DNA of 64,000 nucleotides from Halonotius pteroides (lineage in GTDB: Archaea; Halobacteriota; Halobacteria; Halobacteriales; Haloferacaceae), in NCBI RefSeq assembly GCF_003605635.1, contig NZ_QMDW01000008.1:62001-126000 (forward strand). The letters are read 5' to 3'. Both the position numbers and the translations under genes were made by a program. The stretch's first letter is position 1. The number at the start of each line of letters is the position of its first letter. Under the pieces are notes generated by a model. That model saw only the letters and a list, made by a program, of their open reading frames with translations, was not told the DNA's origin and ran no database searches. Positions 1 to 14,391 of the stretch are shown in pieces.

Positions 1-563
1 AGAACGGCCCCGATCGCAGCAACGATCGCCGTTCGCGTGCTGGCCACAGCGATCGAGGCCACGAGCACGACAGCCACAACGGCGTTGCCAAACAGCAGCG
101 TCACCACCAGAAACCGGGCAAAGAGGATCGGCGAGTCGACGCCGGAATGTGTCGCAAACACGCCGGTGTCGGGGGCAGCGGCGACGGCGACGACGAGCCC
201 AACCACAAAGAGGGCACCACCAACAATCGCTGACAGGACAGCCGCACGACCGAGATAGACCGCCCCAACGTAGGCAGACGGCGAGACGGCGTAGGTGTTC
301 AACATCGCCACCTCGCCACGGCCGAGATCCGAGGGGATCGCCCGATAGCCGATGGCAACCGCGACAGCTGGGACAAGCACCTCCAGTGGCAACAGTAAGT
401 CGACGACAGTTGGGATGTACCCCGTTGCGGCCCCGCCGCCGCTAACTGTCAGCCCGAGCAGGGTTCCGGCAACCACAATCCCAAGCAGGTAGTAGCCCCG
501 CGTTCGGGCAGCCGTGCGGAGTTCCCGCCGGATCAACGTAGAGATGATCGCCAGAGAGCTCAT
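1..563 (-). CDS. nosY: NosY-type ABC transporter permease, partial (C-terminus outside window)
   Basis: About 187 residues are visible, running off the left edge with no stop. After a short basic N-terminus (RRELRTAARTRGYYLLG) come repeated hydrophobic segments near residues 22-40, 53-70, 108-130 and 150-187, the pattern of the NosY/ABC-2 permease family. The start codon overlaps the stop of the upstream ATPase gene (ATGA at 560-563), so the two are translationally coupled. NosY normally pairs with NosF ATPase and periplasmic NosD in copper-site maturation. The call rests on the operon order nosD-nosF-nosY and the topology. A generic ABC-2 permease is the alternative, but the NosD partner makes NosY more likely. 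Confidence 0.8.
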   Translation of the reverse strand, partial: MSSLAIISTLIRRELRTAARTRGYYLLGIVVAGTLLGLTVSGGGAATGYIPTVVDLLLPLEVLVPAVAVAIGYRAIPSDLGRGEVAMLNTYAVSPSAYVGAVYLGRAAVLSAIVGGALFVVGLVVAVAAAPDTGVFATHSGVDSPILFARFLVVTLLFGNAVVAVVLVASIAVASTRTAIVAAIGAV

Positions 564-1414
564 CGGTCGCCTCCCGAGTCGGTGGGCCCACCGGACACCG
601 CCGTGTCCTGATCGGTAGGCTTGTCGCCGCGACGAGGGGCTCCCACGGTCGTCGCCGAACCGTCGCCGGCTGCCGGATCGATGGCAGCGTCGTACACCGC
701 CCAGAGGTCGGCGGCGTCGTACCGCCCGATCAGGTCTGTGGGTGCTCCGGCCGCGGCCACACCGCCTGATTCGAGGATGACGACGTGGTCGGCGTACATC
801 TCGACCAGCGACAGCGTATGGGAGGCGACGACGACCGCCATCCCGTCGGCGGCCCGCCGGGTGAGACTCTCGAAGACTTGCTGAGCCATGCTTGGGTCGA
901 GGCCGCTTGCGGGCTCATCACAACAGACGACCGGTGGGGTGCCAAGAACAGCCTGTCCGACCGCGAGCAGTCGGCGCATCCCGCCCGAGAGCGCGGACAC
1001 CCGCCGGTTGCGAGCCTCGTAGAGATTGACCTCACACAGGAGTTCCTCCGTGTCGACGGCGGCGTCAACCAGCGACGCGTAGAAATCGACGGTTTCGCTG
1101 ACGGTGAACTGCGGCCGAAACGCCGGCTCCTGTGGCAGATACCCCATCGGTCGATCCACGTCTGGGCCGGTGTACGTCACCGTGCCAGCCGTGGGGTCGA
1201 CATGGCCCAACAGCGTCTTCAACAACGTTGTCTTGCCGATCCCGTTGGGGCCGATCACGGCGGTCATCGCGCCAGCGGCGATATCGAGGTCAACGTCGTC
1301 GAAGATGGGTCGGTCACCGTATGCTTTCGTGAGCCCGGTCGTTGTGACGACTGCTGTGGCTCCGTCACCGGTGGCGTGATGCTGCTGTGAGTCGGTGCTG
1401 TCAAAGTTGGTCAT
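560..1414 (-). CDS. nosF: NosF-type ABC transporter ATP-binding protein
   Basis: A cytoplasmic ABC ATPase of 284 residues from the ATG at 1414. Walker A GPNGIGKTT lies at residues 55-63, the signature ALSGGMRR at about 141-148, Walker B VVCCDEPASGLD at 162-173 and the switch His near 199. The reading frame is open further upstream into the nosD 3' region, but the conserved domain begins only about 25 residues after 1414 and a longer start would overlap nosD. It sits between nosD (70 nt gap) and nosY (4 nt overlap). NosF energises NosY/NosD for copper-centre assembly in the family. The last 45 residues are polar and low-complexity. Confidence 0.88.
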   Translation of the reverse strand: MTNFDSTDSQQHHATGDGATAVVTTTGLTKAYGDRPIFDDVDLDIAAGAMTAVIGPNGIGKTTLLKTLLGHVDPTAGTVTYTGPDVDRPMGYLPQEPAFRPQFTVSETVDFYASLVDAAVDTEELLCEVNLYEARNRRVSALSGGMRRLLAVGQAVLGTPPVVCCDEPASGLDPSMAQQVFESLTRRAADGMAVVVASHTLSLVEMYADHVVILESGGVAAAGAPTDLIGRYDAADLWAVYDAAIDPAAGDGSATTVGAPRRGDKPTDQDTAVSGGPTDSGGDR

Positions 1415-1484: not shown

Positions 1485-3419
1485 TCATCGGTCAGGTGGT
1501 GACGGTGTTGCGGGGACGCCGGCAAGCCCGTCGGTGTGGAGCGTCTCCGTTGTCTCAACAAGATCTTGATTCTGTGAGGCCTCAACTGGATCAGGATCGA
1601 GGATGCTCCCGGATCGAAGTCCGGGCGAGGCACCGGTGAGTTCGCGGAGCCCCTGATACACCGGCGAGGCGGCGACCGTCCGGCGGGCCATCGAGCGGTG
1701 TCGCTGGCCGTCAACCGGGTCGGTTGGCATGTATGCTCGCTCGGCTGTTCGGCCACTCGGCGTCGCCAGCGCGTCCTCCCAGTGGTTGCCGCGCCAGACC
1801 CGCAACGGGCCGGCACTCGCACCGGCATGGCGGTCGTTGGCGATGAAATCGTTGCCGGTCACCTTGCTTGTCGCCACAACCGAGCCGGTTCGCATTCCCT
1901 GATTGTTGTGTCGGACGACGTTGTGCTCGTACAGCGAATTGATCGCCGTCGTCGTGATCCCGATCCGGCTGTCGGTGACGCCGTTGTGGGCGATGTAGGC
2001 GTTCGAGCCGCTGGTCGAGATTCCGGTCGCTGTGTTGCGAACCAGGTTGCCGACGATCGCGGTGCGGGTCGGATCGGTCATCACCGTGATCCCGCCGTAC
2101 TCCTGGCCGGCCATGCGGTTGTTAGCGACCAGCGTCTCGGAGCTATACATCAGGTGGACGCCGTAGCGGTTCTCCCGAAAGGTGTTGTTACGGATGACCG
2201 TGCCGTCAGAGCGGTGGAGATAGACGCCATCCCGGCCGTCAGTAACTGCCGAATCCTCGATGACAGTCGGTGAGTACATGGCGATAACGCCCATGAAGCC
2301 GTCATGCCAATCTTCGGGGCCGGCCACCGAGAGGTTCGTCACGACCCCGCCGGGGCTGCGCCGCAACAACACGCCGTTTGCGGGCGTGTGTGGCACGGTC
2401 ACGTCGGCGATGAGCGTGTCGTTTGCCCCGGTTGCCTTGATCGCCGCATCGCCGTGGCCGTAGCCGAGTTCGATATTCGCATCCCACGTGTCGCCAGCCA
2501 CAGCGTCGGGGTTGCGGGTTTGGTTGCCAACGCCGGTGACAGTCACCCCCTGGATCGCCACTCTGTCAGCGGTGACACTGATCACGCTGCCCTCACCGTC
2601 GCCGGCGATCGTCGCGCCCGGCCCGCGAAGCGTGATCGGGTGGTCGATCTCGATAGACCCCGGATACTGCCCGGGGGCGACGGCGACTGTTGTCCCGTTT
2701 GGCGCGTCGTCGATGGCAGTCTGGAGATCATCGTCCGACCCGACGATGACTGATCGCTCACGATCAAGGAGTTCGGTTCTGTTAGCGACCCACGCGTCAG
2801 CGTCGGCCCGCTGCTCTGAGACGCGGTCACGGACGACCGCGCCGTCGTCGGCCTCAAAGGACTGCTCGCTGAGGGTTGTCCATGAGACGACTCGCCCACC
2901 GGTGTCGTCGGCGAATGCGGTGGCGTCATCGCGGTCGCTAAACGGAACGATCGCCTCGCCGACCGGCGTCGTCGCGCCGCTGTCGACGACGAAAACGGCG
3001 TCGCTGGCGGCCGTCCAGGCGGGGTATCGCTCGGTGTCGATCCGGCCGTCGTCGCCGACGCTGGGTGTCGTACTGCTGTAGTCGGTGACGTAGGTCACAA
3101 GCGGGTGGCCGTACTGCTGGCGGGTCGCCGGCTCGGTGATCGCCGCCAGCGCGGTCGGCAACCCGTAGTAGCCGATGACATACTGGTACTGGGAGTAAAA
3201 CACCTGGACGCGGGGGATTGCCGCGGTGTCGTCGGCAGCGACCTCCTCGGCGGAGGCGACCCCGATCGCGCGGGTGTCCTCGAAGGGTACCGGCTCCGGG
3301 GCCGCCGAATCGACAGGGATCCCGAACAACGCGGCCGGAATGACGACCACAAGCACGAACAGCATGAGTCCGACCTGCCACCGTCGGGGGAGCCGCCAGT
3401 CCATACCCCGATTCATCAC
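1485..3419 (-). CDS. nosD: NosD copper-insertion protein with fused N-terminal NosL-like domain
   Basis: 644 residues. A signal or anchor segment lies at about residues 15-35 (VGLMLFVLVVVIPAALFG). Residues about 60-200 look like a NosL domain: the YVTDYSSTTPS stretch, DAVFVVDSG and PFSDRDDATAFADDTGG match the same blocks in the separate NosL lipoprotein at 12092-12712. Residues about 230-560 form a parallel beta-helix (CASH/NosD repeats such as VIRNNTFRENRYGVHLMYSS). I see no cysteine in the protein, so the fused NosL domain lacks the usual Cys ligands. NosD acts outside the membrane with NosF/NosY to deliver copper, classically to N2O reductase; no nosZ lies upstream here. An alternative start is the ATG at 3404. 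Confidence 0.88.
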   Translation of the reverse strand: MMNRGMDWRLPRRWQVGLMLFVLVVVIPAALFGIPVDSAAPEPVPFEDTRAIGVASAEEVAADDTAAIPRVQVFYSQYQYVIGYYGLPTALAAITEPATRQQYGHPLVTYVTDYSSTTPSVGDDGRIDTERYPAWTAASDAVFVVDSGATTPVGEAIVPFSDRDDATAFADDTGGRVVSWTTLSEQSFEADDGAVVRDRVSEQRADADAWVANRTELLDRERSVIVGSDDDLQTAIDDAPNGTTVAVAPGQYPGSIEIDHPITLRGPGATIAGDGEGSVISVTADRVAIQGVTVTGVGNQTRNPDAVAGDTWDANIELGYGHGDAAIKATGANDTLIADVTVPHTPANGVLLRRSPGGVVTNLSVAGPEDWHDGFMGVIAMYSPTVIEDSAVTDGRDGVYLHRSDGTVIRNNTFRENRYGVHLMYSSETLVANNRMAGQEYGGITVMTDPTRTAIVGNLVRNTATGISTSGSNAYIAHNGVTDSRIGITTTAINSLYEHNVVRHNNQGMRTGSVVATSKVTGNDFIANDRHAGASAGPLRVWRGNHWEDALATPSGRTAERAYMPTDPVDGQRHRSMARRTVAASPVYQGLRELTGASPGLRSGSILDPDPVEASQNQDLVETTETLHTDGLAGVPATPSPPDR

Positions 3420-4091: not shown

Positions 4092-5956
<1,865 letters not shown>

Positions 5957-5960
5957 GTGA

Positions 5961-8387
5961 TCAATCCAGCGGGCGGAGCGTCGAGTTCACCACGACCAAC
6001 AGACTGCTCGTTCCCATTGCCACCGCGGCCAACAGTGGATTCAGCAGGCCGGCGACCGCAAGCGGGATCGCCACCGCATTGTAACAGAGTGCCCAGCCGA
6101 GATTCTGGGTGATGCGGCTATTTGTCTTCTTGATGATTGTTAGCAGCGAGGGCACCGCCTCAAGGGTGCCATCGGCGACGACCACGTCGCCGGCGTCGGT
6201 TGCGAGTTTCGTCCCCGTCGCCAACGCGATTCCGAGATCTGCCGTCGCCAACGCCGGGGCGTCGTTGCTCCCGTCGCCGATCATCGCCACCCGACCCTTT
6301 GACTGGAGCTCCCGCACCGTCGCCGCCTTCGCCTCCGGCGGCACACCGGCGAACACGTGGTCGACAGCCGGATGCTCGCCGAACCTCTGGGTTGCGGCCT
6401 CGTTGTCACCGGAGAGAACAACGATCTCGCGGTCGTCGGCCGCAAGCTCGCTGACGACGCCCTCCCAGTCGGCTTTCGGCTCATCGCCGACAGCGATCAC
6501 CCCCTGGATCATCTCGTCCCAGCCGACGACGACAGCGACCGCGCCGCTTTCGGCGATGCGGTCGGCGGCCGCCAGATACTCCGCGGGGTCGTTCCACTCT
6601 CCCTCGCCGAACAGTGATCGATGGCCAACGAGTGTGTCCGCACCGTCGACCTCGCCGCGGACGCCACGCTCTAAGGTGTCGACCGTCTCGATCGAGGCGT
6701 CGGTGTCGGCCCAGCCGGCGGTCGCCACACCGCCATCAGTCGCCGTCGACGGCGGCTCCTCATCCGTTGGCTGGCTTGCTGCCGACACATCGGGGGCGGC
6801 TGCCGCGACGATCGCATCGGCGACCGGATGAGCGGCTGCGCGTTCGAGGGTGGCAGCCGCCGACAGGACGGTCTCGGGGTCGTCGGCGACCGTCTCGGTG
6901 ACTTCCATCTCGCCGGTCGTCAGCGTGCCCGTTTTATCCAGGGCGATCACATCGAGATCGATCGGCCGCTCAAAAACGGTGTCACTGGCAACGACCAACC
7001 CGTGGTCGGCAGCTGTCTGAATCCCGCGGGCAACCGCCAACGGCGTCGCCAACCCGAGCGCACAGGGACAGGAGACGATGATCACGGTCAGCCCGGTGAG
7101 CAGCGCGGCCGTCGGCGGCGTGCCGATTGCGATCAGGCCACTCGTGGCGACCGCACCGATCGTCAACACGAGTGGAACGAAGATCGTCGCCAACTTGTCG
7201 GCGAATCGCTGGACACCCGGGGAACTGCTTTGGATATCCCAGAGGAGTTCGACGAGCCGATCCAGCGTGCTGTCGGCGTCATCGCCGGCCTCGATCGTCA
7301 GCGGCTGATCGGTGACGACGGTGCCGCCGCGGACAAAGTCGCCGGCGCGTTTCGTGCGGGGCAACGACTCACCGGTCACCAGTGCCTCATCGACGGCGGC
7401 GACACCGTCGACGACCGTGCCGTCAACCGGGATCCGATCACCCGGTCGAACAAGGAGCTTGTCGCCTGGTTGCACCTCGGCAACAGGAACAGTCGTGCCA
7501 TCCGGCCGCCGAGCTTCGTCGACCTGAATCGCCGTCAGCTCCGAGAGCAGATCCGACGCCCGGCGTTTGATCCGGGTCTCGTAGTAGTTGCCGAAGGTGA
7601 CAACCAGGATGATGGCGACGGTGACATCGAAATAGAGGTCGGTACGGCCCAAGCCCAAAGCCAGCGTGCTGTACCCGTAGGAGCCCACGGCGGCGACAGC
7701 GATCAAGAGATCCATGTTCGGCTCGCCGGCCTTGAGGCTGACATACGCCCCCCGGAGGATCGGATACCCGGTGTAAAACAACACAAGCGACGCCAACAGC
7801 CACAGCTGGGTGAACAGATACAGCCCATCAAACCCGCTGAGATCGATCAGCGGCTCAAAGCCGAAGTACTTGGGATAGATGAACAACACGTACCACATCA
7901 TCGTCATCATTCCGAAGAACCCGCCACCGATGAGGAACTTGGCGACGGCGACATCGCCGGCCATCGCGGTGTCGTCGCTCAGGGCGCGTTCGGTGGCGTC
8001 GTAGCCGTAGCCCGAAACCAACGCCGGCAGCCGGTCGCCGTCGATGGCGTCGGGATCGTAGTGGAGTTTCAGCGTGTCCGTCGCGTAGCTCGCACTTGCC
8101 GCACCGACGCCGTCATTCTCGACGGCGGTTGATTCGAGAAACGCCTCACAGGTAGCACAGTGCATGCCATCGACATGGAGATACTGCTCGTCGTACTCGT
8201 CCGGGAGGTCGTCAGGATCGGTGTCGGGGTGGAGTTCATCGCGTGCGTCTTCGGGGCTTGTCGCTTCGAGAGAGCCGACCGAGCGCGCAACTTCCAGACA
8301 GCCGTGACAACAGAACTCACCGTCGACAGCCTCGTCGGTGATCGGCGGATCTGGCGTCGGCAGCTCACAGAGCGAACAGGTGTTCAT
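5961..8387 (-). CDS. Copper-translocating P1B-type ATPase (CopA/CcoI-like)
   Basis: 808 residues. A Cys-rich N-terminal module (CSLC at 4-7, FCCHGC at 25-30) precedes a heavy-metal-associated domain with GMHCATC at 74-80; this arrangement resembles FixI/CcoI ATPases that supply copper to haem-copper oxidases. Membrane segments follow, with the copper motif SCPCALG, phosphorylation site DKTGTLTTGE, nucleotide-domain HP (AAHPVADAIV) and hinge GDGSNDAPAL. It would move Cu(I) across the membrane. It lies downstream of a small membrane-protein gene and divergent from the oxidase operon, so a role in oxidase maturation is likely by context. Detoxifying CopA is the alternative. Confidence 0.92.
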   Translation of the reverse strand: MNTCSLCELPTPDPPITDEAVDGEFCCHGCLEVARSVGSLEATSPEDARDELHPDTDPDDLPDEYDEQYLHVDGMHCATCEAFLESTAVENDGVGAASASYATDTLKLHYDPDAIDGDRLPALVSGYGYDATERALSDDTAMAGDVAVAKFLIGGGFFGMMTMMWYVLFIYPKYFGFEPLIDLSGFDGLYLFTQLWLLASLVLFYTGYPILRGAYVSLKAGEPNMDLLIAVAAVGSYGYSTLALGLGRTDLYFDVTVAIILVVTFGNYYETRIKRRASDLLSELTAIQVDEARRPDGTTVPVAEVQPGDKLLVRPGDRIPVDGTVVDGVAAVDEALVTGESLPRTKRAGDFVRGGTVVTDQPLTIEAGDDADSTLDRLVELLWDIQSSSPGVQRFADKLATIFVPLVLTIGAVATSGLIAIGTPPTAALLTGLTVIIVSCPCALGLATPLAVARGIQTAADHGLVVASDTVFERPIDLDVIALDKTGTLTTGEMEVTETVADDPETVLSAAATLERAAAHPVADAIVAAAAPDVSAASQPTDEEPPSTATDGGVATAGWADTDASIETVDTLERGVRGEVDGADTLVGHRSLFGEGEWNDPAEYLAAADRIAESGAVAVVVGWDEMIQGVIAVGDEPKADWEGVVSELAADDREIVVLSGDNEAATQRFGEHPAVDHVFAGVPPEAKAATVRELQSKGRVAMIGDGSNDAPALATADLGIALATGTKLATDAGDVVVADGTLEAVPSLLTIIKKTNSRITQNLGWALCYNAVAIPLAVAGLLNPLLAAVAMGTSSLLVVVNSTLRPLD

Positions 8388-8906: not shown

Positions 8907-9410
8907 ATGAACATTCACAGCTACGAAAAGATCTGGCTTGTCGTCGCGATTCTACTGATCGTCGGCTTCATCAGTACGGTCACGTACGGCGCGACGGCCG
9001 TCGGGATTGATATGGTCGACGATGAGGGTGGCACAGTCAATGCAAGCGCGCTCGATGAGGATCCACGGTTTAGCGAGCCACGGGTCGAACAGGTTGGTGA
9101 CAACGAGTACGAGGCGTATGTCATCGCCCAGCAGTATATCTTCAACCCTGATCCGATCAGGGTGCCGGCCAACAGCACGGTGACGTTCTTTATTACCTCG
9201 CCGGACGTGATCCACGGCTTCGAGATCGTCGGCACAAACGCCAACACGATGGTCATTCCCGGGCAGGTCGCAAAGATCACGGTCAACTTCAATGACCCCG
9301 GGGAGTACGGCATCGTCTGTCACGAGTACTGTGGGAGCGGCCACCACACGATGGAAGGCTCCGTTGTGGTACAACCCGAGGATGAGTTTGAACCCGGAGG
9401 TGACGAATAA
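8907..9410 (+). CDS. cbaB: Haem-copper oxidase subunit II with CuA site (CbaB)
   Basis: 167 residues. One N-terminal membrane anchor (about 9-30) and an extracytoplasmic cupredoxin domain. The CuA ligands are visible: His103 (VIHGFEIV), Cys138, Cys142, His146 and Met149 in CHEYCGSGHHTM, with Glu140 as backbone ligand. It receives electrons from a blue copper protein or cytochrome and passes them to subunit I. The short length with a single anchor is typical of ba3/B-type oxidases. The TAA stop overlaps the next ATG by one base (9410). Its CuA site needs copper delivery, relevant to the Sco1, NosL and NosDFY genes nearby. Confidence 0.93.
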   Translation: MNIHSYEKIWLVVAILLIVGFISTVTYGATAVGIDMVDDEGGTVNASALDEDPRFSEPRVEQVGDNEYEAYVIAQQYIFNPDPIRVPANSTVTFFITSPDVIHGFEIVGTNANTMVIPGQVAKITVNFNDPGEYGIVCHEYCGSGHHTMEGSVVVQPEDEFEPGGDE

Positions 9411-11197
9411 TGGGGTCAGCACTCGAAACTGGTACACCAAGCTTCGTTGATCGCTTCCCACAGGAGGCATCAGTCGTCAAAGCCGCCCTGACAAGCTCAT
9501 TTATCGCGCTGTTCCTTGGCGCGGTGTTTGGGCTTATTCAGGGGTTACACCGAACCGACGTTTTTCGCTTCCTCGATTCACAGTACTACTACACCGTGCT
9601 GACAGCCCACGGTGTGCTGATGGTCGTCTCGTTTACCATCTTTTTTCTCGTTGGGATCTTCACCTGGGCCGTTGTCCGCAGCCTTGATCGGCCGGTCGAG
9701 GATATCCGCTACACGTGGGCCTGGTATGGCCTGATGGTGGTTGGAACACTGATGGCCGTTGTGGCGATTCTCGGCGGGTTTGTCCCCTCAACGGAGCTGA
9801 GTGCCGACGTGCTGTACACGTTCTATGCCCCGCTCCAGGCCCATCCGCTGTTTTATGGTGGGTTAGCCATCTTCATCATCGGCACCTGGCTCGCCGGAGC
9901 GGATTGGTTCCGCTCGTGGTACGCCTGGAAACAGGAGCATCCCGACGAACGCATTCCGCTGCAGACGTTTATGGTGTTGACGACGATGCTGATGTGGTAT
10001 ATCGCCACGATCGGGATTGCGATCGCTGTCGTCGGCTTCCTGCTGCCGTGGTCGCTGGGGCTCATCGAGAGTGTCAATCCGCTGTTGACCCGAACCTTGT
10101 TTTGGTTCTGGGGCCATCCGGTGGTCTACTTCTGGCTGATGCCGGCGTACCTGCTGTGGTATACGGTGCTGCCGAGTATCTCGGGTGGGCGGCTGTTCAG
10201 CGATCCACTCGCCCGCGTCGTCTTTGTGTTGTTCCTCCTGTTGTCGACGCCGGTGGGCATCCACCACCAGTACGTTGATCCGGGCATCGCCGAAGGGTTC
10301 AAGCTGATCGCCATGACGAACACGATGTTCCTCCTGCTGCCGAGTCTGTTGACTGCCTTTACTGTCGTCGCCAGCATGGAACACGGTGCGCGACAGCGCG
10401 GCGGGAGTGGCCTCTTCGGCTGGCTGCGCGCACTGCCGTGGCGGAATCCGGCCTTTACCGGCATGGCTCTTGCCGGACTGATGTTTGCTGCCGGTGGGTT
10501 CAGCGGCATGATCAACGCCGGGATGAACATCAACTATCTTATACACAACACGCTGTGGGTGCCAGGTCACTTCCATCTCACCGTCGGCACAGCAGTTGCC
10601 CTGACGTTCATGGCAGCGAGCTACTGGCTGTGGCCACAGCTCACGAACAAACCGCTGTTCAGCCGACCGATCGCGCTGACACAAACTGTCGTCTGGTTTG
10701 TCGGCATGGCACTGATGTCGAATGCGATGCACGTTATGGGGCTGTTCGGTGTCCCACGGCGCACCGCCGAGCCACAGTACGAGGGCTTTGAGTTCGTCGC
10801 CTCATTCGGCTCGATTACCGAGCTGCGAATGCAGCTTGCCCTCGGAGCGACCCTGTTGTTCATCTCGACGGTGTTGTTCGTGAGCAACATCGCACTCTCA
10901 ACCGGGTCGCCGACGCGGACAGGGCTCGGACAACCGCTCTCAAAGCCGCTGTCGCCGGCGGCTGATTCACCGGAGGTGCTGGACAATCTCAAGCTCTGGT
11001 TTGGGATCGCTATGGTGTTGGTCGTCTTGGCATACATGCTCCCGCTGGCCAGCATTGTCGGCGACAGTGGTGTCATTGACCGTGGCGTCTCCGCCGCACC
11101 GGTGATGATCGATCTCCTCACAGGGCTCAATCCAGTTACTGCGGTCACTGAGGCGGTCAGCCGTCTGAGTGTGGCGATCGTGGGGGTGGTTCCATGA
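9410..11197 (+). CDS. cbaA: Haem-copper oxidase subunit I, ba3/B type (CbaA)
   Basis: 595 residues and about 13 membrane helices. Low-spin haem ligands are His67 (TAHGVLM) and His389. CuB ligands are His236, His285 and His286 (IHHQYVDPG), with Tyr240 spaced for the His-Tyr cross-link (HPVVY). The high-spin haem ligand is His387 (VPGHFHL). The enzyme reduces O2 to water and pumps protons. The sequence lacks the full D-channel motif of A-type oxidases, as expected for the B family. It overlaps the next gene by 4 nt (ATGA at 11194-11197). Confidence 0.95.
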   Translation: MGSALETGTPSFVDRFPQEASVVKAALTSSFIALFLGAVFGLIQGLHRTDVFRFLDSQYYYTVLTAHGVLMVVSFTIFFLVGIFTWAVVRSLDRPVEDIRYTWAWYGLMVVGTLMAVVAILGGFVPSTELSADVLYTFYAPLQAHPLFYGGLAIFIIGTWLAGADWFRSWYAWKQEHPDERIPLQTFMVLTTMLMWYIATIGIAIAVVGFLLPWSLGLIESVNPLLTRTLFWFWGHPVVYFWLMPAYLLWYTVLPSISGGRLFSDPLARVVFVLFLLLSTPVGIHHQYVDPGIAEGFKLIAMTNTMFLLLPSLLTAFTVVASMEHGARQRGGSGLFGWLRALPWRNPAFTGMALAGLMFAAGGFSGMINAGMNINYLIHNTLWVPGHFHLTVGTAVALTFMAASYWLWPQLTNKPLFSRPIALTQTVVWFVGMALMSNAMHVMGLFGVPRRTAEPQYEGFEFVASFGSITELRMQLALGATLLFISTVLFVSNIALSTGSPTRTGLGQPLSKPLSPAADSPEVLDNLKLWFGIAMVLVVLAYMLPLASIVGDSGVIDRGVSAAPVMIDLLTGLNPVTAVTEAVSRLSVAIVGVVP

Positions 11198-12091: not shown

Positions 12092-12712
12092 TTACCGGCC
12101 GGTCGACGCTTTGATACCGTCGATCAGATCGCGGTCGACAGCGGTCGCTTGCCGAACGCTTCCCCCGTGAGTCGACGCAAACGAGTCGGCGTCCTCACGA
12201 ACCGAAAAGGCGATCACATCCGACCCCATCGCGCCCCGCACCTCGCTGCCGGCGACAACGAACAGTTCGGATTCAAGCGCGAAGCTGTCGGCATCAAGTG
12301 CCGCCGAGATAAACGGCTCGCTGTCGTCGCTGAGGTCGTACTCAACCTGGCTGTAATCGGTGAGATAGGTACCGATCGGCGTCGCACCCTCATCAACACG
12401 GTCGAACCGGTAGCTATAGGCACAGATGCCACTGCAGAACCATGCTGGGCCATCACGGTCGTCAGGCAGTGATTCAAAGTAGACCTGACCGGTTGGCCCA
12501 GGGTAGTCCTGGATGATCATGCCGCACTCATCGCAGGCCTGGCCCGCACCGAGTGAGACGGGGGCTGGAACCTCGCCGCCAGCCGAGGAGCCGCCAAGAC
12601 AGCCGGCGACAACGGTGGCTGCCAGCCCACCGCCGGCAGCAACCATCGACCGCCGGGACAGCGATGGCGACAGCAGGCGGTCGGGGATCGATCGATCAGG
12701 CGGGTGTGACAT
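12092..12712 (-). CDS. nosL: NosL-family copper-binding lipoprotein
   Basis: 206 residues from the ATG at 12712; upstream codons in the same frame lack signal-peptide features. A twin-arginine-like SRRSMVA and lipobox VVAGC (cleavage before Cys near residue 36) predict an exported lipoprotein. The core has CDECGMII, the NosL copper-site motif, then a second Cys pair (WFCSGICAYS), YLTDYSQVEYDL and FSVREDADSFASTHGG. NosL proteins are Cu(I) chaperones that work with NosDFY. The gene is convergent with the oxidase operon and divergent from the Sco1 gene. It shares sequence blocks with the N-terminal domain of the NosD at 1485-3419. Confidence 0.87.
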   Translation of the reverse strand: MSHPPDRSIPDRLLSPSLSRRSMVAAGGGLAATVVAGCLGGSSAGGEVPAPVSLGAGQACDECGMIIQDYPGPTGQVYFESLPDDRDGPAWFCSGICAYSYRFDRVDEGATPIGTYLTDYSQVEYDLSDDSEPFISAALDADSFALESELFVVAGSEVRGAMGSDVIAFSVREDADSFASTHGGSVRQATAVDRDLIDGIKASTGR

Positions 12713-12865
12713 ACAGACGGGTATGGGTCGGTCGAGCAAAACCGGTCTGGTGTAGCCATCAAACAGCGGTCGATGTGGGTGGGTAGATGGCAAAAAGCGC
12801 GTCACGGAGTTACTTCGAGGCCCACACCAGAGGCTACTTTCAGCCGGCACCAGTACAGATGAGTA

Positions 12866-13558
12866 ATGGATCGACGGTCGTATCTCAATGCAGGCGCGGC
12901 GGTAGCGGCAGCGGGTGCGACCGCCGGCTGTCTCGGCGGCCTCTTCGACAACGGGCCGGAAAACGTCGTGTTGTCCGAACCGGACGACCAGCTCGCCGAC
13001 AGCAGTTCGCTGGCGTATCCGGCCTACGGCGAGTCGTTCCCGACGTTTACGCTGTCAAATCCGTTCGCTGAGGCGTCGTTTTCGGTCGCCGACTTCGGGG
13101 AGCCGTTTCTCTGTACGGCGTTCTATGCGTTCTGTCCCGCCGAATGTATCCTGCTGTTGAACTCGTTTGGGAAGGTGCAGGCGCGGCTGCTCGAAGCGGA
13201 TCGAGCCGATGAGATCGGCCTTCTGGCGATCACGTTCGATCCCGAACGCGACACACCCGAGACGTTGCGGACAAACGCCGACCGGCGGGGCATCAACTAC
13301 CAGCATCCGATGTGGTACTATCTGCGACCCAGATCGGCCGACGCCGCCAAACAGGTCGTGGAGGAAAAACTCGGGTTGGCCTACGAGAAAATCGGTGATG
13401 TCAACGGCGATGCCTACGAGTTCACCCATATCAGCGTCACCTTCCTTGTCAACCCAGACGGGGTGGTCGAACGCGCCTATCGGGGCGAACAGCCGGCTGT
13501 CGACCGTCTCGTCGACGACAGTCTCACCGTCCAGAACGCCTATTCTCAGGATACCTGA
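12866..13558 (+). CDS. SCO1/SenC-family copper chaperone lipoprotein
   Basis: 230 residues. The start MDRRSYLNAG leads into a hydrophobic stretch and lipobox TAGC (Cys22). The thioredoxin-like domain carries CPAEC (Cys90, Cys94) and the copper-ligand His187 (FTHISVTFLVNPDG), the complete Sco1 set. The family delivers copper to or reduces the CuA site of oxidase subunit II. Two bases separate it from the next gene. It is probably expressed divergently from nosL. Confidence 0.9.
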   Translation: MDRRSYLNAGAAVAAAGATAGCLGGLFDNGPENVVLSEPDDQLADSSSLAYPAYGESFPTFTLSNPFAEASFSVADFGEPFLCTAFYAFCPAECILLLNSFGKVQARLLEADRADEIGLLAITFDPERDTPETLRTNADRRGINYQHPMWYYLRPRSADAAKQVVEEKLGLAYEKIGDVNGDAYEFTHISVTFLVNPDGVVERAYRGEQPAVDRLVDDSLTVQNAYSQDT

Positions 13559-13560
13559 TC

Positions 13561-14391
13561 GTGAGCCTGCTTCTCCAACACAGCTGCAGCGCGCCGAGTT
13601 CGGCCAGCAGCCTTGCTGGCCAGCCGGTAAGTCTGGGGGTGTTTCTGCTGATCGGGCTCTTTGGTGGGGCCCACTGTCTGGGGATGTGTGGGCCGTTGGT
13701 GACGACCTACGCCGACCGGATGCGCGAACAGGACGACTGCGGTGGCGGCCGTGGCGGCGGCCGGCTCTCTGTCGGGATGGTCAAACAACACGGGCTGTTC
13801 AACCTCGGGCGGGCGGTGAGCTACACGCTGATCGGCGGCCTCTTTGGCCTGGCCGGCTCGCTGGTCGTCGTCTCGGCGGGGCAGGTGACGACAGCGTTCC
13901 GCGAGCTCAACATCGTCGTCGGCTTCAGCATCGGGCTGCTTATCATGGCCGCCGGCGTGAGCTATCTGATTCGCGGCCAGGTCATGTCGCTGCCCGGCGA
14001 GTCGCTGGTGACGCCGGTGACGACGGCGGTGCAATCGCGGCTCATGGTGCGGGTCGACGACTACGTCGGTGGGCCACGGATCGCACTGCTCGGCGGGATC
14101 CACGGGTTGTTGCCGTGTCCGCTGCTGTATCCGGCGTTTCTGTACGCGTTTGCCCAGGCTGCGCCGGTGCGGGGTGCGCTATCGCTGGCCGCGCTTGGGC
14201 TCGGCACGATCCCGTCGCTGTTTCTCTATGGAACGCTGTTTCAGTCGGTGTCGGTGTCGACCCGGGTGAAACTCCATCGGGTACTCGGCGTTGGCTTTCT
14301 CGTGTTGGGGTATATCCCGTTTCAACACGCGCTGATGCTCATGGGGATCGAGTTGCCACACCTGCCGGTACCGTTCTATCAACCGCTCTGA
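13561..14391 (+). CDS. COG2836 (SafE/TauE-like) cytochrome-biogenesis membrane protein
   Basis: 276 residues from a GTG start 2 nt after the Sco1 stop. Six or so membrane helices. The first carries GGAHCLGMCGPL (His38, Cys39, Cys43), diagnostic of the COG2836 family often found next to ccoGHIS genes in bacteria; a related GGIHGLLPCPLLYPAF occurs near residue 180. The Cys/Met/His set suggests copper handling in the membrane. Database names (sulfite exporter, urease accessory-like) are likely misleading here. Context with Sco1, NosL and the oxidase supports copper supply. Confidence 0.85.
   Translation: MSLLLQHSCSAPSSASSLAGQPVSLGVFLLIGLFGGAHCLGMCGPLVTTYADRMREQDDCGGGRGGGRLSVGMVKQHGLFNLGRAVSYTLIGGLFGLAGSLVVVSAGQVTTAFRELNIVVGFSIGLLIMAAGVSYLIRGQVMSLPGESLVTPVTTAVQSRLMVRVDDYVGGPRIALLGGIHGLLPCPLLYPAFLYAFAQAAPVRGALSLAALGLGTIPSLFLYGTLFQSVSVSTRVKLHRVLGVGFLVLGYIPFQHALMLMGIELPHLPVPFYQPL

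Follow-up and report, generated by a model that had tools for sequence, protein, structure and literature searches.

The nosLD gene of Halonotius pteroides (contig NZ_QMDW01000008.1) encodes a protein that starts with a complete NosL-fold domain, as shown by sequence comparison and structure modeling, from which the copper ligands of NosL have been lost. We propose that this NosL-NosD fusion (NosLD) would, together with NosF and NosY, carry out an ABC-driven hand-over of Cu(I) to a cuproenzyme other than nitrous oxide reductase (NosZ), with a ba3-type cytochrome oxidase as the best guess and the pseudo-NosL domain serving as an adaptor. The probability of this reading is put at about one-half. 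The whole stretch of DNA analyzed, 64,000 nucleotides long, is referred to as the window, and its relevant features are collected in Table 1.

Table 1. Features of nosLD and of its neighboring genes (positions in the window)
Feature	Position	Strand	Basis
NosY-like permease, 273 aa, runs 258 bases past the window	1..563	minus	
NosF-like ABC ATPase, likely start 1414	560..1414	minus	Pfam ABC_tran, 95.5 bits; start chosen by eye
NosLD, NosL-NosD fusion, 644 aa	1485..3419	minus	Pfam NosL and NosD matches exceeding their cut-offs; full-length AlphaFold model
NosD right-handed beta-helix and C-terminal part, residues 222-612	1584..2756	minus	PDB folds 7osf_A, 7o0y_A; profile match
H422-x-M424 ... 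M447, candidate Cu(I) ligands of NosD	2079..2156	minus	Conservation; putative role
Linker helix, residues 193-219, from NosL-like domain to beta-helix	2763..2843	minus	Secondary structure of the model
NosL-like domain, residues 38-186	2862..3308	minus	HMM match 69-186; hhalign to NosL over about the whole domain; Foldseek top five are NosL
PRVQVFYSQYQYVIGYYG, residues 69-86, most conserved stretch of the domain, equivalent to NosL GPTGQVYF and beyond	3162..3215	minus	Invariant or near-invariant columns
Degenerate copper site, residues 49-54, TRAIGV versus CxxCGM in NosL	3258..3275	minus	hhalign; column counts
N-terminal hydrophobic helix, residues 12-32, probable membrane anchor	3324..3386	minus	Helix in the model and hydrophobic sequence; putative anchoring
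Copper-type P-type ATPase with N-terminal HMA domain	5961..8387	minus	Pfam E1-E2_ATPase, HMA
Oxidase subunit II with CuA motif CHEYCGSGHHTM	8907..9410	plus	Pfam COX2; motif from sequence
Oxidase subunit I, ba3 type	9410..11197	plus	Thermus ba3 oxidase 1ehk, E 1e-119
Free NosL with intact CDECGM	12092..12850	minus	Pfam NosL, 114 bits; PDB 7osf_H
SCO1/SenC copper chaperone	12866..13558	plus	Pfam SCO1-SenC
DsbD_2-type membrane protein	13561..14391	plus	Pfam DsbD_2, 148.7 bits

The reading frame at 1485-3419 was confirmed and lies on the minus strand. As evident from the full-length AlphaFold model (pLDDT 87.6, pTM 0.85), helix 12-32 is followed by the NosL-like domain, the long helix 193-219 and a beta-helix. 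The closest PDB folds found for the beta-helix were 7osf_A and 7o0y_A, the NosD chains of NosDFY(L), and the NosLD profile matched 7o0y_A with an E value of 2e-33. Pfam NosD (PF05048) matched residues 385-549 with 73.6 bits (cut-off 23.6), and the curated cut-off of TIGR04247 (NosD) was missed (178 versus 300 bits). Residues His422, Met424 and Met447 were 100% conserved in 41 NosLD proteins and 20 canonical NosDs, and the H-x-M...M pattern is matched in NosD from Pseudomonas stutzeri. From this conservation, the three residues are likely Cu(I) ligands of NosD. In the structure of the NosDFYL complex, NosD reportedly holds a Cu+ ion. The genes nosF and nosY belong to the same operon as nosLD, as in NosDFY systems. 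In the interval from nosLD to the P-type ATPase gene, two ORFs (4092-5743) resembled, by eye only, an IS200/IS605-like element with TnpA-like and TnpB-like proteins.

The preliminary description had placed a NosL-like domain at residues about 60-200, sharing sequence blocks with the free NosL encoded at 12092, and this assignment was borne out. Pfam NosL (PF05573) matched residues 69-186 well above its cut-off of 24 (57.1 bits, E 3e-15); an independent NosL search of the whole genome returned the same match with 60.6 bits, one of four NosL domains in this genome. BLASTP aligned NosLD with the free NosL across the named blocks (E 6e-6). A profile of 47 NosLD-type domains aligned nearly end to end with that of haloarchaeal NosL (probability 99.1, E 5e-19), and a PDB sequence search with the domain retrieved exclusively NosL chains at E < 1e-5. 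Structure prediction agreed. AlphaFold2 modeled the domain alignment with pLDDT 82 and pTM 0.76, and all five PDB structures matched by Foldseek at E <= 1e-3 were NosL (7og7, 7znq, 7osj, 7osf and 7osg), with a TM score of 0.68 for 7og7 by target length. The domain is not a free lipoprotein copper chaperone of the NosL kind; it is fused to NosD behind the N-terminal helix. The Pfam match begins at profile position 23, and absence of the copper-site part was considered as an explanation; it was rejected by the profile-profile alignment, in which this part is present in degenerate form.

In that alignment, PVSLGAGQACDECGM of NosL was paired with PVPFEDTRA---IGV of NosLD, so that the glycine was kept and both cysteines and the methionine were lost; CDECGM of the free NosL corresponded there to TRA---IGV. 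Gly53 was retained in 85 of 86 homologues, none of which carried cysteine at the copper-site positions and one of which had methionine at position 54. Among 133 full-length NosLD homologues, CGM did not occur and any CxxC occurred once, in agreement with the earlier remark that the CxxCGM site is absent. The earlier observation of no cysteine in the whole protein holds for NosLD of the window; of its relatives, about 44% are free of cysteine after the transmembrane segment, and the remainder mostly have a cysteine pair at non-motif positions. The CxM motif of NosL is believed to bind a single Cu(I) (PMC6530538). Because these ligands are gone, copper binding in the manner of NosL can be excluded for the NosLD domain on the basis of its sequence. 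Loss of cysteine alone is no proof that metal binding was lost, because free haloarchaeal NosLs without cysteine exist (GGM type). In NosLD, methionine was lost along with cysteine, and the domain of the window protein (residues 38-216), devoid of both, is left with a single histidine. The domain had been described as a fused, non-metal-binding NosL, and we retain this description in the sense of a NosL fold predicted to be unable to bind copper as NosL does.

The cysteine-free free NosLs form a subfamily in which GGM (or HGM) stands where other NosLs have CGM, and in which WFHT/FPYHF is conserved (L112:1993-2586; also L092, L103, L106, L109, L154, L168 and others). Members are encoded within nosZ operons as well as close to some nosLD genes, and they possibly have a His/Met copper site.

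A search of 292 genomes sampled from the class with the full NosLD sequence gave matches in 207. Twenty of these matches were weak and were taken as canonical NosD only, which left the fusion in 187 genomes from 48 of 77 genera. Its closest named relatives were from Halonotius species; the bacterial plasmid NosDs among the matches listed aligned only from about residue 217 onward, i.e. without the NosL domain. Forty further fusion loci, 20 NosZ loci and 77 loci from named genomes were compared, with partly overlapping species, and fell into two clearly distinct groups. NosZ operons encoded NosF, NosY, often NosL, and a NosD of about 460 aa lacking the NosL domain, whereas fusion genes were mostly followed downstream by nosF and then nosY. 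This canonical haloarchaeal NosD (L091-L110) shares the beta-helix and the conserved H/M/M residues with NosLD; it differs in that it adjoins nosZ, has no NosL domain and is weakly similar to the window protein (E about 1e-15 to 1e-24). The profile of the NosL-like domain matched 118 NosL and 136 NosLD ORFs and no canonical NosD. The fusion is no peculiarity of this genome; it is how a whole haloarchaeal NosD family is normally built. This family resides in NosLD-NosF-NosY operons, is separate from NosZ-linked NosD and has a degenerate NosL domain throughout.

NosZ was present in 85 of the 292 genomes, was not found in the window genome and was encoded at none of 118 NosLD loci. Because nosZ is absent from the window genome and from all NosLD loci examined, the NosLD system does not serve nitrous oxide reductase.

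Several peculiarities were seen at individual loci. Tandem nosLD copies occurred at L080, L082, L081 and L076, in some cases with a separate nosF and nosY for every copy, and several genomes had two to four NosLD matches. At L060, L062 and L075, nosLD had no adjacent nosF or nosY and stood beside a cluster including a NosL-domain lipoprotein. Haloarchaeal nos operons hold a conserved gene without Pfam match (L103:10945-11715), flanked by nosZ and nosD, that may be the counterpart of nosB in clade II clusters. One contig assigned to a Nitriliruptoraceae MAG (L135) encoded a NosLD of typical haloarchaeal type with 46% identity; a binning error is the probable cause.

A free NosL was encoded near NosLD at 68/77 and 32/41 loci. 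SCO1, counted by search with the SCO1 of the window, was encoded within about 9 kb at 42/77 and 14/41 NosLD loci versus 0/20 NosZ loci (Fisher p 2e-6 and 2e-3), and DsbD_2 was found at 34/77 loci. The ba3 COX1 gene was a less common neighbor than SCO1 and NosL (9/77 and 8/41 loci). A conserved helix-turn-helix protein of mostly 166-209 aa, possibly their regulator, adjoined nosLD operons at L191:12484-13011 and at 36/77 loci, and the small membrane protein DUF7471 was encoded near nosLD at 41/77 loci (e.g. L072:11809-12171) and nowhere near nosZ.

Genomes with NosLD included ones that have nitrous oxide reductase and ones that lack it; what NosLD strongly tracked was the ba3-type oxidase. Both NosLD and ba3 COX1 were present in 168 of the 292 genomes and both absent from 72; 19 had NosLD only and 33 COX1 only. 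Agreement was hence seen in 240 genomes, with an odds ratio of 19 that carries no full-phylogeny correction. By genus, the respective numbers were 44, 20, 4 and 9 (odds ratio 24, p 4e-8, likewise without full phylogeny), and the link persisted within ten variable genera (permutation p 0.0004). The association of NosLD with NosZ by genus was not significant (p 0.22), and co-occurrence with NirK was far weaker (odds ratio 2.9 at genome level); NirK was not found in the window genome at the cut-off used. Fifteen of the 33 COX1-only genomes contained NosZ and thus own a canonical nos system. The link is not strict: 19 genomes with NosLD had no ba3 COX1 above the cut-off used, and in 18 others the oxidase was accompanied by neither NosLD nor NosZ. 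The co-occurrence may instead reflect a shared aerobic lifestyle. No report of a link between NosLD and ba3 oxidase was found in the literature searched. Many nirK matches in one genus group (g27; e.g. G154, G084, G102) contained one in-frame TGA, which may be mere read-through at the 3' end.

The system shares with NosDFY(L) of P. stutzeri (PDB 7o0y, 7osf, 7znq) the NosD beta-helix, NosF, NosY, a separate NosL and the H-x-M...M residues of NosD; it differs by the fused copper-less NosL with its N-terminal helix, the lack of NosZ, and SCO1 and a ba3 oxidase nearby. With the NosL chaperone (PF05573; PDB 2hpu, 2hq3, 7og7), the NosLD domain has in common the fold and the C-terminal half of the sequence; unlike the chaperone, it possesses neither CxxCxM nor CxM, no methionine and one histidine, and it is part of NosD rather than a free lipoprotein. 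NosZ-less NosDFYL systems with alternative recipients have been proposed in Bacillota (PMC3475470, PMC13068155), a copper nitrite reductase being the recipient suggested for Parageobacillus thermoglucosidasius (PMC13068155). Haloferax volcanii is reported to have nosFY without nosZ (cited in PMC9240420). Both resemble the present case in having a NosDFY-type operon without nosZ, and the passages drawn upon describe no fused pseudo-NosL. The fusion itself has been listed without a functional reading, as "nitrous oxide reductase accessory protein NosL/NosD" in the annotation of Natrinema thermotolerans QCC61054.1 and as NosL family plus NosD for H. mediterranei HFX_RS15875 (PMC9240420). Accordingly, the fusion as a name in database annotation and NosZ-less NosDFY in bacteria are already known. 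New are the separation of the fused family from NosZ-linked NosD, the degeneration of its NosL domain throughout and its tracking of the ba3 oxidase.

In the proposed mechanism, NosLD, NosF and NosY, whose gene order is evident, would assemble into a NosDFY-type ABC complex. A free NosL of the CxxCxM kind would give up its Cu(I) to the H-x-M...M residues conserved in NosD, and NosF, at the expense of ATP, would drive the hand-over of this copper to a respiratory copper enzyme. The best guess for the recipient, based on neighborhood and co-occurrence, is the ba3-type cytochrome oxidase whose genes lie at a distance of 5-8 kb; insertion or hand-over of copper specifically for this oxidase by such a machine with its pseudo-NosL adaptor is proposed tentatively. 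With its attachments to the membrane and the first beta-helix turn, the pseudo-NosL domain would probably be a fixed adaptor that permanently replaces or shapes one docking surface. This is the weakest step.

Two other roles of the domain were weighed. According to the preliminary description, it could serve to dock the free NosL; copper would thereby be brought to NosD. The frequent proximity of a free NosL gene is compatible with docking without demonstrating it, and the retained fold with its highly conserved non-metal stretch would fit; canonical NosD, however, takes NosL without any pseudo-NosL domain, and because NosL is described as monomeric (PMC7558416), we found no precedent for pairing of NosL with NosL. 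Docking is considered possible but rather unlikely. Less probable still is an internal gate that covers the NosL-binding face of NosD until displaced by real NosL or ATP. Such a gate would have an obvious seat on NosD, because the NosL-NosD complex is solved (NosDFYL; 7osf, 7znq), but the degenerated part of the domain is the very copper-binding surface.

As to the recipient, NosLD-NosF-NosY might supply several copper proteins (NirK, halocyanins, multicopper oxidases) rather than the ba3 oxidase specifically. The weak co-occurrence with NirK, the proposal made for Parageobacillus (PMC13068155) and the genomes with two to four NosLD matches agree with this idea, which is nevertheless somewhat improbable: no NirK passes the cut-off used in the window genome, and NosLD co-occurs far more strongly with the ba3 oxidase than with NirK. 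Maturation of nitrous oxide reductase, as the annotation has it, finds backing in the family names and the NosD fold. The absence of NosZ contradicts it for the window genome, nosZ is missing from all 118 NosLD loci, and NosZ loci have a NosD of their own, which makes this role most improbable.

NosLD is found both where nitrous oxide reductase is present and where it is absent, and it tracks the ba3 oxidase instead, so that its nitrous-oxide name is probably misleading. This label is attached to a family found in nearly two thirds of the sampled haloarchaeal genomes, and predictions of N2O reduction made from NosD annotation are affected by it. Delivery of copper to oxidases is usually credited to passive chaperones, such as SCO1 and PCuAC. 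If the link to the oxidase is true, NosLD with NosF and NosY would be a concrete, testable route of energized copper delivery to a heme-copper oxidase, and its N-terminus would be a natural case of a chaperone domain that has become an adaptor without metal binding.
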